A stretch of DNA of 64,000 nt from Candidatus Gastranaerophilales bacterium (GTDB lineage: Bacteria; Cyanobacteriota; Vampirovibrionia; Gastranaerophilales; Gastranaerophilaceae), in assembly GCA_944323875.1 (NCBI GenBank), contig CALUUH010000004.1, forward strand, positions 46,705 to 110,704, written 5' to 3'. The position numbers and the translations under genes were made by a program. Below are positions 12,001 through 50,005 of this stretch, one piece after another; within the stretch, counting starts at the first letter, position 1; each line of letters starts with the position of its first letter. The notes beneath the pieces were generated by a model. The model made no database searches and was not told the DNA's origin. It worked only from the letters and a program-made list of their open reading frames with translations.

Positions 12001-12214
12001 GTCTTGGATTTGCTTCACGCTCGCAGAGTTTCGCCTATAGTGCTAGCGCACAAGTCGGCTCAATCTGCTCGCTACCCGGATTTGCTCACTTCGCTGTCTT
12101 GCTCGCCGGCGTTAAACGGGTCTGCAACGCCGCCGCCTTCGCGTCGCCGTTTCGCCCTCTGCCGGCTCGCGCTTCGCGTCATCCGTCCGCAAATCCGCTA
12201 ATCACTTAGTCACG

Positions 12215-12243
12215 TCCAACTAAGGGCTTTGCCCTTAGTTGGA
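12215..12243. promoter_or_regulatory. Post-VR hairpin containing the pilin 1 stop codon
   Basis: A perfect 13-bp stem (TCCAACTAAGGGC with GCCCTTAGTTGGA) with loop TTT. The gene's last codons and TAA are in one arm. The equivalent hairpin ends pilin 2. Hairpins or cruciforms directly after the variable repeat are known to promote DGR retrohoming; that role here is inferred. Confidence 0.8.
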
Positions 12244-13605
12244 GATGCAAACAGCGCAGATGCCGTTGCCGTCCTTGAGGTACACGTTATTGCCACTACC
12301 GTCCGTGGTGGTAGTGCCGAAGGACCGGACGTACGCGCCAGCCGCAGTGTACTCCTCACTGGACCAGTAGCGGTAGCCATTGTATTTGATTGGCGGATTT
12401 TGGGTGTATTCGTCCTTTACTTTTAGTCCGCTTTTATTCTCGTTTGCTCCTATCGTTACTTCATCTCCGTTGCTATCTACGTATAAATTGCTTGCTAATT
12501 GTGCAAGTTGAGCCATCGTTGGTAGTTCCATGTTCTTTTGATCGCATGCTTTTTTAGCTCCTGCCCAATAATTGTTTGCGCAATATGAATTTGCTGAGCC
12601 ATTGCTGTCGTATGTTGTGTCATCACAAGTGTTTATTGCTGTATTTGCAATAAAATCAGTTGACCAGCACATGTCACCAATCGGGTTATCACAGGTTGAG
12701 AACGCTACGCCTGAGCTTAGTTGAATATCTTTTCCTACTCTATTCGGCCCTTTCTTTCCGTTTACATCTACCATATACCCCATGCAGCTTACTTGGCTAC
12801 CAGTATCTTCTATCGGGTCAGCATAAGGGCATTCAGGCTGATATGCCATAATTACTGTTGTTCCGTCTGCAACTACAAAGCTCATTGTATTGGTATTAGT
12901 TTGCCAGTCGCTCAAGCCCATGCTGGACGCACTTGTAAGGCTGTCAGTTTCGACTTCTATCGGTTCTTCGTTACTTCCTGTTGTAACGACTTTAGGTGAA
13001 TAACATTTGTTAATGTCTGTATTGTCACAGGTTTTAATGACTTTCATATATTGCTTGAAAGTGTCCATAAAGTCCTCTGTAGAGTCGTGACCCGTCATAA
13101 CGCCATCAGTGTTCATACGGCGGACAGTCTCAGTGAGTTTCTTTTCCCATAGGTCTTTAGCCGTAGACCATGCCTTCTCGTTATGATTTTGAATGAGCCC
13201 CGGAAGTGTCAGTGCGGCCACTATTCCAATAACCGCGAGGGTGATTAATACTTCAGCCAAAGTGAAAGCAGCCTTCTTTGAAGTTACTAAGGCACTAGGG
13301 CACTGAGGCACTAAGGATTTACATGAGGCCGGCTCTGTAGCTTCGTGACGGGGTACGTCATGCTGAACTTGTTTCAGCATCTCATTACCGTTGCATTGCA
13401 TTTTCTCCCCGTATGTAAGAGCAGACTTGTCTGCCCCCCTCCTCGAAATCAAAGATTTCGGTCCTCCCTCAAGGGGAGGACATTGAGATTGTGTCTCTTT
13501 AGTCCTTCTCTTTAAACCCTCATCCGGCCTGCGGCCACCTTCTCCCAGAGGGCGAAGGGAATGTAGCGACTGTTGTTGCTCTTTTTTAACATTTGCTTCA
13601 ATCAT
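12235..13605 (-). CDS. Type IV pilin-like protein with hypervariable C-terminus (pilin 1)
   Basis: A 456-aa pilin-like protein, probably displayed on the cell surface. The prepilin motif is KKAA/FTLAEVLITL: cleavage would follow A113, with the conserved Glu at mature position 5, then a ~20-residue hydrophobic helix. A cysteine-rich domain follows (CDNTDINKC, CPYADP, CDNPIGDMCW) and a C-terminal region with NGYRYWSSEEY like C-type-lectin/DUF1566 folds. The start is fixed by SD AAGGAG 9 nt before the ATG, so the unusual 113-aa leader is translated. Parts of that leader are translated repeats (residues 13-31, 75-84, 97-109). The last 45 codons form VR1. The paralogue is at 48714. Confidence 0.85.
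   Translation of the reverse strand: MIEANVKKEQQQSLHSLRPLGEGGRRPDEGLKRRTKETQSQCPPLEGGPKSLISRRGADKSALTYGEKMQCNGNEMLKQVQHDVPRHEATEPASCKSLVPQCPSALVTSKKAAFTLAEVLITLAVIGIVAALTLPGLIQNHNEKAWSTAKDLWEKKLTETVRRMNTDGVMTGHDSTEDFMDTFKQYMKVIKTCDNTDINKCYSPKVVTTGSNEEPIEVETDSLTSASSMGLSDWQTNTNTMSFVVADGTTVIMAYQPECPYADPIEDTGSQVSCMGYMVDVNGKKGPNRVGKDIQLSSGVAFSTCDNPIGDMCWSTDFIANTAINTCDDTTYDSNGSANSYCANNYWAGAKKACDQKNMELPTMAQLAQLASNLYVDSNGDEVTIGANENKSGLKVKDEYTQNPPIKYNGYRYWSSEEYTAAGAYVRSFGTTTTDGSGNNVYLKDGNGICAVCISN
12247..12381 (-). repeat. Variable repeat VR1, candidate DGR target
   Basis: A 135-nt segment encoding the last 45 residues before the CISN tail. Aligned without gaps to VR2 (49803-49937) it differs at 36 sites within the first 42 codons, 33 of them at codon positions 1 or 2 and mostly in NNC codons. 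All can derive from adenines (mainly AAC codons) in one template. The 3' end GCGCTGTTTG is identical in both copies (candidate initiation-of-mutagenic-homing site, 12248-12257). Confidence 0.8.
13286..13317. repeat. Period-8 repeat (ACTAAGGC) translated in the pilin 1 leader
   Basis: Four degenerate ACTAAGGC units. Read on the minus strand they encode leader residues around SLVPQCPSALVTS, just before the prepilin site. Similar units occur at 63983-64000. Confidence 0.7.
13357..13384. repeat. Palindromic repeat, translated as EMLKQVQHD
   Basis: ATGCTGAA-CTTGT-TTCAGCAT palindrome inside the pilin 1 leader. LKQVQHD-type peptides are a familiar signature of translated dispersed palindromes in many genomes. 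Confidence 0.7.
13514..13569. repeat. Dispersed repeat R1, copy 1 (translated PLGEGGRRPDEG)
   Basis: Reads on the minus strand as TCGCTACATTCCCTT...GAGGGTTT and encodes leader residues SLHSLRPLGEGGRRPDEGL. Copy 2 is in the pilin 2 leader (48801-48856). A related palindrome is at 63845-63880. Confidence 0.8.
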
Positions 13606-45657: not shown

Positions 45658-48318
45658 ATGACAGAAAAACGTGTTTGGCTTTTCAGAGAAGGCAACGCAA
45701 ATATGCGTAATCTTCTCGGCGGAAAAGGCGCAAATTTGGCAGAGATGACCAATTTAGGCCTGCCTGTGCCACCGGGGTTAACTATTACTACAGAAACTTG
45801 TATGGATTACATCAATCATGGCAACAAAATGCCTGATGGTCTTATGGATGAAGTAAAGGCTGCATTGAAAGATGTTGAACAACAAGCCGGTAAAAAATTC
45901 GGTGATACTCAAAATCCGTTACTTGTATCTGTTCGTTCAGGCGCAAGACTTTCTATGCCTGGTATGATGGAAACAATCCTTAACTTAGGGTTGAATGACG
46001 ATACTGTAGAAGCTATGGTTAGACTTACTAACAACCCTAGATTCTGCTATGACAGCTACCGTCGTTTCTTAACCATGTTCGGTTCTGTTGCATGGGAAAT
46101 GGACAGACAAAAATACTTCGAATCAGAAGTTGAAAAACTTAAAGAACGCGAAGGTGTTAAAGAAGATACTGAAATTTCAGCAGAAGGCTGGAAATCTTTA
46201 ATCCCTGTCTACAAAAATGTTATTAAAGAAGTTACAGGTAAAGAATTCCCGCAAGATCCATACGTTCAATTGGAAGAAGCTATTGAAGCCGTATTCAGAT
46301 CATGGAATATTCCGCGTGCAGTTGCTTACAGAAACATGAACAAAATCGACCACAGCTACGGTACTGCTGTTAACGTTCAAACAATGGTATTCGGTAACAT
46401 GGGCGACGATTGCGCAACAGGTGTTTCATTCACCCGTAACCCTGCAACCGGTGAAAATAAATTCTACGGTGAATACTTAACCAATGCTCAAGGTGAAGAC
46501 GTTGTTGCAGGTATCAGAACTCCAAAACCTATTGCGGAATTGGAAAACGAAATGCCTGATTTATACAAGCAATACGTTGATATCGCTAAAAAACTTGAAC
46601 TTGGCTACAAAGATGTTCAAGATATGGAATTCACAATTGAAAAAGGTAAATTGTGGATCTTGCAAACCCGTAACGGTAAAAGAACTGCAGCTGCTGCTGT
46701 AAAAATCGCTGTTGATCTGCACGAAGAAGGTATTATTACAAAAGAACGTGCTATTCAGCTTGTTGATCCTTATACAGTTAACCAGATCTTATTACCTTGC
46801 TTTGATGCAAAAGCACTGGCTGACGCTCACAAAATTTGCTCAGGTGTAAACGCATCTCCTGGTGCTGCTGTAGGTAAAATCGTATTTGATACAGAAGAAG
46901 CAGCAGAACGAGGCGCAGCAGGTGAAAAAGTTATCCTTGTACGTGTAGAAACATGTCCGGATGATATTCACGGTATGGCTGTTTCTCAAGGTGTATTGAC
47001 ACTCAGAGGCGGCGCAACTTCTCACGCAGCAGTTGTTGCTAAAGGTATGGGTAAACCTTGCGTTTCAGGTTGCGAAGATTTAAAAATTGACCTTAACAAC
47101 GAAACATTAACAGGTGCAGACGGTACTGTTTACCACAAAAACGATGTAATTTCTCTTGACGGCGGCAAGGGACTTGTTATGGAAGGCGCTGTTAAACTCG
47201 TTGAAGCTCAAATTGACGACAACTGGAACAAATTCTTTAGCTGGGTTGACGAAATTAAACAAATGAAAGTTGAAGCTAACGCAGATACTCCTAAAGATAT
47301 TGAAAACGCTAAGAAATTCGGTGCAGAAGGTGTCGGTCTTTGCCGTACAGAACACATGTTCATGGATCCTGACAGACTGCCTTGGGTACAAAAAATGATT
47401 ATTGCAGGTACTCCGGAAGCAAGAAAAGAAGCTCTGGAACACTTATTGCCTATGCAATATTCAGATTTCTACGCAATGTTCAAAGCTTTAGGCGACAAAC
47501 CTTTGACTGTAAGACTTTTAGACCCGCCGCTTCATGAATTCTTACCGGATAAAGAATCTTTAATCGCGGAAGTAGCTACTTTAAAAGCTCTCGGCAAAGA
47601 CGCATCAGAAAAAGAAGAACTTTTACATGTTGTAGAAAGTCTTTCAGAATCTAACCCGATGATGGGCTTGCGCGGATGCCGTCTGGGCTTAACTTATCCG
47701 GAAATCAATGAAATGCAAGTTAGAGCAATCTTTGAAGCTTGCTGTGATTTGAAAAAAGAAGGATTAAATGTTAAACCTTGGGTAATGGTACCGTTAATCG
47801 GCCACGTAAACGAACTTAAAGTCGCTAAAGAAACACTTGTTCGTGTAGCAAGAGAAGTTATGATTAAGAAGGGCGTAGAAGTTGAATACAAATTCGGTAC
47901 TATGATTGAAATTCCGCGTGCTGCATTAACTTCTGACGAAATTGCAGAATACGCTGAATTCTTCTCATTCGGTACAAACGACCTTACACAAATGACATTC
48001 GGCTACTCACGTGACGATGCAGAAGGTAAGTTCTTGAACAGATATGTTGAACAAAAAATCTTACCTGCTAACCCGTTTGAAACATTAGATCAAAAAGGTG
48101 TTGGCCAGTTAATTGAAATGTCAATGGAAAAAGGTAAGAAAATAAATCCTTCACTTGTCGGCGGTATTTGCGGTGAACACGGCGGTGATCCTGATTCTGT
48201 TAAATTTGCACACAAAATCGGATTGGATTACGTATCTTGTTCTCCATTCAGAATTCCGCAAGCAAGACTTGCTGCAGCACAGGCTGTTGTTGAATCACGT
48301 CAACTTGCACTTGTGTAA
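45658..48318 (+). CDS. ppdK: Pyruvate, phosphate dikinase
   Basis: Interconverts pyruvate + ATP + Pi and PEP + AMP + PPi; in anaerobes it often replaces pyruvate kinase or supports gluconeogenesis. The 886-aa protein has MLLGGKGANLAEM-type N-terminal ATP-grasp (LLGGKGANLAEMTNLGLPVP, SVRSGARLSMPGMMETILNL). The phosphohistidine is in GGATSHAAVVAKGMGKPCVS, and the C-terminal barrel has GLCRTEHMF, GTNDLTQMTFGYSRDDAEGK and GGICGEHGGDP. The frame is open further up, but AAGGAG before the ATG at 45658 and the family's usual N-terminus fix the start. Strong terminator after it. Confidence 0.98.
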   Translation: MTEKRVWLFREGNANMRNLLGGKGANLAEMTNLGLPVPPGLTITTETCMDYINHGNKMPDGLMDEVKAALKDVEQQAGKKFGDTQNPLLVSVRSGARLSMPGMMETILNLGLNDDTVEAMVRLTNNPRFCYDSYRRFLTMFGSVAWEMDRQKYFESEVEKLKEREGVKEDTEISAEGWKSLIPVYKNVIKEVTGKEFPQDPYVQLEEAIEAVFRSWNIPRAVAYRNMNKIDHSYGTAVNVQTMVFGNMGDDCATGVSFTRNPATGENKFYGEYLTNAQGEDVVAGIRTPKPIAELENEMPDLYKQYVDIAKKLELGYKDVQDMEFTIEKGKLWILQTRNGKRTAAAAVKIAVDLHEEGIITKERAIQLVDPYTVNQILLPCFDAKALADAHKICSGVNASPGAAVGKIVFDTEEAAERGAAGEKVILVRVETCPDDIHGMAVSQGVLTLRGGATSHAAVVAKGMGKPCVSGCEDLKIDLNNETLTGADGTVYHKNDVISLDGGKGLVMEGAVKLVEAQIDDNWNKFFSWVDEIKQMKVEANADTPKDIENAKKFGAEGVGLCRTEHMFMDPDRLPWVQKMIIAGTPEARKEALEHLLPMQYSDFYAMFKALGDKPLTVRLLDPPLHEFLPDKESLIAEVATLKALGKDASEKEELLHVVESLSESNPMMGLRGCRLGLTYPEINEMQVRAIFEACCDLKKEGLNVKPWVMVPLIGHVNELKVAKETLVRVAREVMIKKGVEVEYKFGTMIEIPRAALTSDEIAEYAEFFSFGTNDLTQMTFGYSRDDAEGKFLNRYVEQKILPANPFETLDQKGVGQLIEMSMEKGKKINPSLVGGICGEHGGDPDSVKFAHKIGLDYVSCSPFRIPQARLAAAQAVVESRQLALV

Positions 48319-48713: not shown

Positions 48714-49949
48714 ATGGGAAAAAAGAGTAGAGTAAGTAAAGTGAGTGAAGTGAGTACAGTGAGTGAGGTGAGTAAGATGTCGGAACAAGGCGAACAGCAA
48801 TCGCTACATTCCCTTCTACCTTTGGGAGAAGGTGGCCGGAGGCCGGATGAGGGTTTAACGAAAATCGGCAGGCTAGCCTGCACCAACACTCAGGTGGCCG
48901 CTAAAGCTGCTTTCACTTTGGCTGAAGTATTAATCACCCTCGCGGTTATTGGAGTGGTGGCCGCTCTGACCTTGCCGGGGCTCATTCAAAATCATAACGA
49001 GAAGGCATGGTCTACGGCCAAAGATCTCTGGGAAAAGAAACTCACTGAAACTGTCCGCCGCATGAACACTGACGGCGTCATGACAGGACACGACTCTACA
49101 GAGGACTTCATGGATACTTTCAAGCAATATATGAAAGTAATAAAGACCTGTGATAATACAGATATTAACAAATGCTACTCTCCTAAAGTCGTAACTACAG
49201 GAAGCAACGAAGAACCTATGGAAGTTGAAACTGACTCTTTAACCTCTGCCTCAAGCATGGGACTAAGCGACTGGCAAACTAATACAAATACCATGAGCTT
49301 TGTCGTTGCAGACGGAACAACAGTTATTATGGCGTATCAGCCGGAATGTCCTTATGCTGACCCTATAGAAGATACAGGATCTCAAGTATCTTGCATGGGA
49401 TATATGGTAGATGTAAACGGAAAGAAAGGACCGAATAGAGTTGGAAAAGATATTCAATTATCTTCAGGCGTAGCGTTCTCAACCTGCGATAACCCAATAG
49501 GCGACATGTGCTGGTCAACAGAGTTTCTGGCGAATAGAGCTATCAACACATGTGCAGGCAGTGAATACGAAGATATGGAAGAGCAACACGGAAGTGGTTG
49601 TTCTACTAACTATTGGGCAGGAGCAAAACTAACTTGCCAAGAGAAAAACATGAGCTTACCAACGAGAGCACAACTTGCACAGTTAGCTAGTGAATTATAT
49701 GTAAACTCAAGCGATGGAAGCGCAGTAACAATAGGAGCGAACGAGGGTAAAAGTGGCCTCAAAGTAAAGGACGAATACCAACAAAATCCTCCAATCAACT
49801 ACAATGGCTACTACTACTGGTCCAGTGAGGAGTACAATGCTGGCAACGCGTACTACCGGGGCTTCTACACTGCCTACACGCGCGGCAGTGACAATTACTG
49901 GTACGGCAAGCTCTACAGCAACGCCAGCGCTGTTTGTATATCCAACTAA
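48714..49949 (+). CDS. Type IV pilin-like protein with hypervariable C-terminus (pilin 2)
   Basis: A 411-aa paralogue of the 12235-13605 gene. A 66-aa leader precedes the prepilin site KAA/FTLAEVLITL (cleavage after A66, Glu at mature position 5). SD AAAGGGGG before the ATG shows that the leader is translated. Leader residues 6-24 (SRVSKVSEVSTVSEV...) come from a period-9 DNA repeat and residues 30-48 from dispersed repeat R1. The next ~190 residues are almost identical to pilin 1 despite many synonymous changes. The segment after AINTC diverges moderately. The last 45 codons form VR2, ending with the same CISN tail. Likely surface pilus or pseudopilus tip/adhesin. Confidence 0.86.
   Translation: MGKKSRVSKVSEVSTVSEVSKMSEQGEQQSLHSLLPLGEGGRRPDEGLTKIGRLACTNTQVAAKAAFTLAEVLITLAVIGVVAALTLPGLIQNHNEKAWSTAKDLWEKKLTETVRRMNTDGVMTGHDSTEDFMDTFKQYMKVIKTCDNTDINKCYSPKVVTTGSNEEPMEVETDSLTSASSMGLSDWQTNTNTMSFVVADGTTVIMAYQPECPYADPIEDTGSQVSCMGYMVDVNGKKGPNRVGKDIQLSSGVAFSTCDNPIGDMCWSTEFLANRAINTCAGSEYEDMEEQHGSGCSTNYWAGAKLTCQEKNMSLPTRAQLAQLASELYVNSSDGSAVTIGANEGKSGLKVKDEYQQNPPINYNGYYYWSSEEYNAGNAYYRGFYTAYTRGSDNYWYGKLYSNASAVCISN
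48734..48776. repeat. Period-9 tandem repeat translated in the pilin 2 leader
   Basis: AAGTGAGTG / AAGTGAGTA / CAGTGAGTG / AGGTGAGTA units. The 9-nt period keeps frame and gives the VSE/VST/VSK peptide pattern. Confidence 0.85.
48801..48856. repeat. Dispersed repeat R1, copy 2
   Basis: TCGCTACATTCCCTT...GAGGGTTT with CCTTCT...AGAAGG and GGCCGG-AGGCCGG palindromic cores; encodes SLHSLLPLGEGGRRPDEGL. Confidence 0.8.
49803..49937 (+). repeat. Variable repeat VR2, candidate DGR target
   Basis: Gap-free homologue of VR1 (12247-12381). Invariant sites include TACTGGTCC, AGTGAGGAGTAC, GCGTAC, the CGG-NNC-TTC-NNC-ACT spacing and GCGCTGTTTG (candidate IMH, 49927-49936). Variable sites sit almost wholly at the first two bases of NNC codons. 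Local GC is well above that of the chromosome. Confidence 0.8.
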
Positions 49950-49969
49950 GGACTTTGGCCTTAGTTGGA
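49941..49969. promoter_or_regulatory. Post-VR hairpin containing the pilin 2 stop codon
   Basis: TCCAACTAAGG/CCTTAGTTGGA, perfect 11-bp arms; the TAA stop is in the left arm. Same design as 12215-12243. Confidence 0.8.
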
Positions 49970-49970
49970 C

Positions 49971-50005
49971 GTGAATAAGTGATTAGGTGATTAAGTGACT
50001 AAGTT
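49971..50005. repeat. Period-8 tandem repeat
   Basis: AAGTGATT-type units, the reverse complement of the CACTTAGT repeat downstream of pilin 1. Confidence 0.7.

Follow-up and report, generated by a model that had tools for sequence, protein, structure and literature searches.

The Two Pilin Genes and Their Variable Repeats

The DNA analyzed here is a stretch of 64,000 nucleotides (hereafter the window) from a Candidatus Gastranaerophilales bacterium, which extends from position 46,705 to 110,704 of contig CALUUH010000004.1 in the assembly GCA_944323875.1 (G000:C4:46705-110704). This assembly, referred to below as G000, is 1.94 Mb in size, 97.11% complete and divided into 49 contigs. It was compared with a congener genome, G003, and with the genomes G001, G002, G004, G005, and G042. 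The window contains two pilin genes whose 3' ends carry matching blocks of 135 nt. These blocks are very probably the variable repeats (VRs) of a diversity-generating retroelement (DGR), within an array of about 40 pilin genes that was likely rewritten in trans by a machine of reverse transcriptase (RT), Avd and template repeat (TR) which is missing from the assembly. The features concerned are as follows.

12235..13605, minus strand: pilin open reading frame (ORF) 1, 456 aa, with a VR at its 3' end and a prepilin N-methylation motif
12247..12381, minus strand: variable repeat 1 (VR1), 135 nt, without gaps against VR2 or the first G003 template (TR1)
12215..12243, minus strand: inverted repeat at the end of VR1, stem 13 bp, loop 3 nt, overlapping the stop codon
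48714..49949, plus strand: pilin ORF 2, 411 aa, with a VR at its 3' end
48912..48980, plus strand: start of the mature pilin (FTLAEVLITL...) with a hydrophobic N-terminal helix, from the sequence, TIGR02532 and an AlphaFold2 model
49473..49946, plus strand: predicted C-type-lectin-like domain enclosing VR2 (AlphaFold2 model; VIA-align matches, model residues 188-345)
49803..49937, plus strand: variable repeat 2 (VR2), 135 nt
49941..49969, plus strand: inverted repeat at the end of VR2, stem 11 bp, loop 7 nt, overlapping the stop codon

Both window pilins score above the cut-off of TIGR02532, the prepilin N-terminal motif, while PF07963 (N_methyl) is matched above its cut-off by ORF 1 (E = 3.3e-5) and below it by ORF 2. 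The VR lies at the 3' end of the gene and within the C-type-lectin fold of its product, as predicted for the one paralogue that was modelled. An earlier note on this DNA had aligned 12247-12381 (minus strand) with 49803-49937 (plus strand) without a gap, and this alignment holds over all 135 nt. The number of differences within it is 37, rather than the 36 reported, and 33 of them do fall at codon positions 1 or 2, as had been claimed (16 at position 1, 17 at position 2, and 4 at position 3).

An Array of Hairpin-Marked Pilin Genes

A BLAST comparison of VR2 with its own genome gave 43 matches, and the stretches around them contain 40 pilin genes ending in a VR-type block, some of which are degenerate. 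The window pair represents two of about 40 such genes in G000, a scale that is absent from the earlier note. The 40 copies were read from among 67 pilin matches, not all of which were read; one row of the 41 around the G000 matches (C37:6407) is not a pilin and was dropped, and one further pilin gene (L310) was found later, beyond the 40. The prepilin start is present in 39 of the 40 copies, the remaining one running off its contig, and several copies sit at contig ends.

A perfect stem of at least 10 bp (10–13 bp), located where the block ends and overlapping with the stop codon, is present in 28 of the 40 G000 VRs, and the same stem of at least 10 bp was found at 19 of the 21 G003 loci examined (out of 32 VR-type matches). 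The background frequency of such stems is 2 in the 45 other ORF ends of the window and 0.55% in random 60-mers. The sequence of the stem depends upon the species while its pairing is kept, the stem being mostly TCCAACTAAG in G000 and mostly TCGAACTAAG in G003. At the corresponding place of the G003 template (TR1, described below) the longest stem is 3 bp, and another stem, of about 7 Watson-Crick pairs, is located some 30 nt further on. Short tandem-like units of the GTGATTAA type follow the VR hairpins at 12192-12225 and 49959-49992 and were seen by eye at many loci of both G000 and G003.

A 72-nt repeat, 89% identical between its copies, is also located in the 5' parts of both pilin ORFs (13506-13577, minus strand; 48793-48864, plus strand). 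Because this repeat lies inside both ORFs, the unusually long leaders that precede FTLAEV seem to be partly translated interspersed repeats. The leaders are common to otherwise different paralogues, and the leader peptide was for this reason dropped as a marker of allelic loci.

Divergence of Pilin Bodies and Tips

The earlier note had stated that outside the block the pattern of change is reversed, and this was confirmed with a larger number of genes. The comparison covered 16 of 22 G000 paralogues, those with a body of 201 codons that aligns without gaps. In this body 2.4% of the residues and 35% of the third positions of identical residues differ, whereas the figures for the VR are 45% and 4.8%. 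The third-position difference was lower in the VR than in the body in 120 of 120 G000 pairs. Four G003 genes gave the same result in 6 of 6 pairs, with third-position differences of 31% in the body and 3.7% in the VR. Judged from these sequences, the G000 pilin genes are old duplicates under strong constraint, the tips of which were copied much later from a shared source.

A Template Repeat and the Adenine Specificity of the Differences

A template matching the VR family is present in G003. It is a non-coding, AAC-rich repeat of 147 nt, located at C12:10061-10207 on the minus strand and outside any pilin gene. Over a 120-nt core, the 14 ungapped VRs among the 21 G003 loci examined differ from this template at 293 of 700 A cells (42%) and at 16 of 980 non-A cells (1.6%), and they match it at 98.4% of the non-A and 58% of the A positions. 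The 22 G000 VRs compared with the same template (18 of the 40 were left out as not being ungapped at 60%) differ at 501 of 1100 A cells (46%) and 114 of 1540 non-A cells (7.4%), while against their own consensus there are 79 non-A differences in 1540 cells. The higher non-A figure for G000 consists of sites at which the majority of its VRs have a state of their own (template positions 39, 42, and 70) together with scatter; at these three positions 11 or 12 of the 14 G003 VRs carry the state of the G003 template. Such states are as expected if each lineage has copied its own template. Adenine-specific differences between VR and template were also seen in the pairs involving the second G003 template (TR2) and those of G002 and G042.

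Over the 147-nt block the two window VRs differ at 38 sites, 28 of which are on the 56 A positions of the G003 template (Fisher p = 4e-7). The statement of the earlier note that every mismatch fits an A in the template, with C, G, and T unchanged, is too strong, as 10 of the 38 differences sit on non-A positions of this template. These ten include a conserved Trp codon and an Arg codon, both altered in the 12235-13605 pilin. Some of the non-A differences would fit a lineage-specific template (positions 39, 42, and 70) and others look like ordinary mutation.

Three explanations that involve no retroelement can be considered at this point. Surface tips of pili often vary, and ordinary diversifying selection on the pilin tips would agree with this and with the confinement of change to one block. 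However, selection acting on residues would not hold the C, G, and T positions of the template, including those at third positions, while A varies to all bases. The third-position difference in the VR is also one seventh of that in the body, and a matching template exists in G003. The template and the third-position data together speak against selection as the sole cause, and we regard this explanation as very improbable.

Pilin antigenic variation in Neisseria occurs by gene conversion from silent cassettes, and a similar process here could draw upon the many paralogues with near-identical bodies. Identical VRs are indeed found under different leaders (P0128 and P0142), and recombination between copies therefore probably occurs. 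However, silent truncated donors were not found among the 40 copies read, the prepilin start being retained as noted above. Conversion shuffles existing blocks, whereas the VRs differ pairwise at 45% of their residues by base changes that are adenine-specific. As the origin of the variation, conversion is very improbable, if slightly less so than selection.

An assembly artefact, in which mixed strains have collapsed into chimeric 3' ends, could be suspected in a metagenome-assembled genome (MAG) with near-identical paralogues, several of them at contig ends. However, the same pattern against a template is seen in the assemblies of G001, G002, G003, G004, and G042, with a like pattern in G005, and identical VRs occur on differing bodies among database entries. 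The chance of such an artefact is close to negligible.

Components of the Retroelement in Related Genomes

An avd gene adjoins the G003 template. Its product is matched by bAvd PF22296 (E = 8.8e-13) and by the PHROG family "Avd protein of DGR" (E = 1.5e-22) and scores 56 of 80 bits, below the cut-off, with the NCBIfam Avd model. A second avd-template module is present on contig C19 of G003, where it adjoins its own pilin target, 21 of the 24 base mismatches being on A. The DGR-type RT of this genome (377 aa) is found on contig C9, apart from both avd-template modules, and no Avd is present within 8 kb of it. It contains YVDD and the motif LPIGNLTSQ, which we take to mark the RTs of DGRs. Avd was found in the same stretch at 36 of 43 RT loci scanned (L181-L223, of 80 returned), and among the seven scanned loci without it only that of G003 has full 8-kb flanks on both sides. 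In G002 and G042, compact avd-template-RT cassettes occur with local pilin targets, and in G042 a template-like stretch accompanies a further pair of RT and avd. A template and a DGR-type RT are present in all three of these genomes, and their avd genes number two in G003, one in G002, and two in G042. The RT of G002 is 76% identical to that of another genus vs. 55% to that of G003.

The central proposal of the earlier note took the blocks to be variable repeats of a DGR, located in pilin tips that resemble C-type lectins. Support for it comes from the template, avd and DGR-type RT of the congener, the adenine-specific differences, the hairpin at most VR ends and the predicted fold. The further proposal of the note, of one trans-acting DGR, is supported only in part. 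G003 has two avd-template modules together with one DGR-type RT, the G000 VRs belong to at least two length classes as judged by eye, and an RT, a template and a credible avd were not found in G000.

Absence of the Machinery from the Assemblies of G000 and Sister Genomes

The G000 assembly yielded no RT in a search with PF00078, which matches in 3 of 14 control genomes, and none with the G003 RT protein as query; no template was found with the VR, the inferred A-rich template, or a short pattern as queries. The template-search matches of at least 40 nt are all at pilin 3' ends and none is a template. A single weak avd-like match (E = 0.006) in a 118-aa ORF of unproven kind was not counted as Avd. 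The earlier note had held that the lack of a template or RT from the complete genome would speak against a DGR; as the assembly is only 97% complete and consists of 49 contigs, the present result neither contradicts the DGR reading nor bears it out. The aligned flanks of the RT site are separated by about 1.26 kb in G003, whereas they are 58 bases apart in G000, on one contig, and 12 bases apart in G002. The two neighbours of the G003 template are on different contigs in G000.

DGR-type RTs and credible avd genes were likewise absent from G001, G004, and G005, a result that covers RT and avd only, templates of the genomes' own classes not having been searched for there. An RT in G004, which reads LPTGAPTST and is unmatched by the DGR RT, was rejected as DGR-type. 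VR-type pilins are present in all six genomes of the genus that were searched and a DGR-type RT in two of them; the four with such pilins and no DGR-type RT (G000, G001, G004, and G005) are 96–99% complete. Four independent assembly gaps are unlikely at this completeness, and the remaining choices are repeated loss or a carrier left out by binning.

Nine G001 and G004 VRs fit the G002 template, from which they differ at 159 of 351 A cells and 49 of 531 non-A cells, in a count for which 12 of 17 fetched stretches were given and three dropped (two poor fits and one blockless). One VR, L336 (G004:C13), agrees with the G002 template at every non-A site compared (59 of 59), with no DGR-type RT found in G004. 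The 20 pilins read from G005 (L290-L309, the best 20 of 49 matches) end in a VR-like block of another class, in which the variable columns, counted without a known template, contain A 207, G 182, T 142, and C 59 times. Three of these pilins (L303, L304, and L306) appear to be degenerate, and two others (L299 and L301) have identical ends.

A mobile source was also sought. Viral contigs gave no pilin relative, one RT relative at 29% and no match to the VR/template pattern; among the matches listed, the RT relatives reached about 34% at best in plasmids (all under 60%) and up to 48% in phages. No cognate mobile carrier was thus found in these collections.

Comparison of Likely Alleles

The set compared consisted of 163 listed database proteins (from 1271 + 1464 hits) and the genomic copies, and pairs within it were treated as likely alleles when their bodies shared 96% identity or more. 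At seven G000 loci with near-identical database entries, which show 0 to 17 body differences, the VR is identical in six and one residue apart in one. Of five G003 loci with at least one body difference, four have identical VRs and one, P0194 vs. L285, has been rewritten; here the bodies are 98% identical and the change is mainly in the 3' part of the VR, its first part having been preserved. Such a pattern would be expected if copying starts at the 3' end, as known from work on phage BPP-1. In comparisons between database entries only, three pairs at 96–98% body identity have VRs 60–81% identical, while the VRs are identical in P0125/P0126 and in the group P0260/P0265/P0266. Three pairs with bodies between 95.5% and 96% identical have VRs that are 51–65% identical, and the VRs differ at three loci where the flank shared between the two species, G000 and G003, exceeds 600 nt. 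From these comparisons, VRs appear to be rewritten slowly relative to the divergence of strains. A contrast between a frozen G000 and an active G003 is not claimed, the unchanged loci being 6 of 7 vs. 4 of 5.

These results bear on whether the DGR of G000 is complete and still active, with its RT, avd and template in the unassembled 3% of the genome or on mobile DNA missed by binning. The completeness of the assembly, its 49 contigs and the pilin copies at contig ends would allow for this. The VR third positions of G000 are nearly as uniform as in the machine-bearing G003 (4.8% vs. 3.7%), and the database entry P0178 and the VR at G000 C2:107868 differ by 4 residues, all at template Asn codons. 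However, the DGR-type RT is equally absent from G001, G004, and G005, the cassettes of G002, G003, and G042 are on contigs carrying housekeeping genes, and RT relatives with avd nearby are present in many other Gastranaerophilales MAG records. The lack of a mobile carrier in the viral, phage and plasmid collections searched and the unchanged or nearly unchanged VRs at the seven G000 loci also count against it. We place a hidden active DGR somewhat below an even chance. That the machine is now lost from the G000 lineage, or is intermittent in it, is the least certain step of our interpretation and appears slightly the better supposition.

Proposed Mechanism and Its Wider Form

In the interpretation that we prefer, an RNA copy of the template would be reverse transcribed, with errors at A, by the RT together with Avd, and the resulting cDNA would replace VRs at the hairpin-marked sites; these steps of copying and replacement are taken from PMC3240598 (this and the other papers cited below by PMC number are drawn upon in part). 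The lectin-like tips of the pilins would vary while the body stays fixed, giving a pilus or pseudopilus whose lectin-like tips are variable. The machine may since have been lost or may be only intermittently present in the lineage.

A wider form of this interpretation, which we put forward tentatively and consider rather doubtful, is that in this Gastranaerophilales genus resident hairpin-marked arrays of tens of lectin-tipped pilins are visited by small modules of RT, avd and template. These modules would come and go between genomes, act in trans to rewrite the array, and later disappear, so that the repertoire is left frozen. It is suggested by the presence of VR-type pilins in all six genus genomes with a DGR-type RT in two, and by the complete non-A fit of L336. 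The separate contigs of RT and avd-template modules in G003, the empty RT site in G000 and G002 and the closer relationship of the G002 RT to that of another genus point the same way.

Comparison with Known Systems

The DGR of Bordetella phage BPP-1 (mtd, avd, TR, brt) resembles the present system in adenine mutagenesis from a template, Avd, RT, a C-type-lectin target and a hairpin located just 3' of the VR. It is one compact cassette with one target, whereas here there are about 40 targets, and the RT and the avd-template modules are on different contigs (G003) or were not found (G000). In BPP-1 the hairpin 3' of the VR is required for homing (PMC3240598). Phage DGRs have a GRNA tetraloop, unlike the loops seen here, and stems of 7–10 bp vs. 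10–15 bp in the present case (PMC3240598).

Thiohalocapsa PB-PSB1 is similar in having cellular DGRs with remote targets and degenerate loci, and activity in trans was proposed there from perfect TR-VR matches at non-A sites (PMC10907252). Its genome of 7.95 Mb contains 9 loci with 21 VRs and 15 target genes, the targets being putative conflict-system sensors (PMC10907252), in contrast to G000, where an assembly of 1.94 Mb contains about 40 such pilins and lacks an RT. Cyanobacterial DGRs, from a related lineage, also have dispersed C-type-lectin targets of a genome's DGR, with 121 genes in 21 genomes judged to be diversified, 76 of them remote; these targets are tied to signalling and transcriptional control, and the word "pili" is absent from the main text (PMC7517822). 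Bacteroides has DGRs that, as here, act upon a pilus tip in a gut bacterium (Macadangdang et al. 2024, via PMC12632263), although its pilins are of the type V lipoprotein class and those described here are type IV-like prepilins (PMC12632263).

Pilin-like targets as such are not new, since putative pilin structures have been linked to DUF1566 targets in earlier work (PMC6642488). High VR counts have also been reported before in another form, the same paper mentioning that the VR copies of a single TR may number a dozen or reach into the hundreds and giving as an example a gene that contains 21 merged VRs (PMC6642488). Neither "pilin" nor "Gastranaerophilales" occurs in the main text of PMC8144416. 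The literature searched, which lacks most subscription journals and bioRxiv, contained no paper joining diversity-generating retroelements with Gastranaerophilales and none joining diversity-generating retroelement, type IV pili and variable repeat.

If our interpretation is correct, targeted hypermutation has been extended to about 40 genes for pilus tips in a gut bacterium with a genome of 1.9 Mb, whose lineage is non-photosynthetic although related to the cyanobacteria. These targets would outnumber the 15 of PB-PSB1 (PMC10907252), and the writer would not have to reside in the same cells as its targets. Several questions then become open to test: whether the cores of DGRs work in trans upon scattered target arrays, whether they pass between genomes as mobile elements do, and what benefit a permanent stock of lectin-like pilins brings to a bacterium of the gut.

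Other Reverse Transcriptase Loci

An RT on contig C49 of G003 was rejected as DGR-type, as it is without the LPIGNLTSQ motif. At this locus (L127, G003:C49, 717-4036) the non-DGR-type RT ORF of 475 aa adjoins an ORF of 619 aa that appears transposase-like by eye. Another Gastranaerophilales RT locus (L203, CALUYZ010000002.1) has five pilin ORFs within 17 kb, with VRs of a different class; these pilins end in VRC[LI][RK][RK], and two of them are identical over the last 70 residues.
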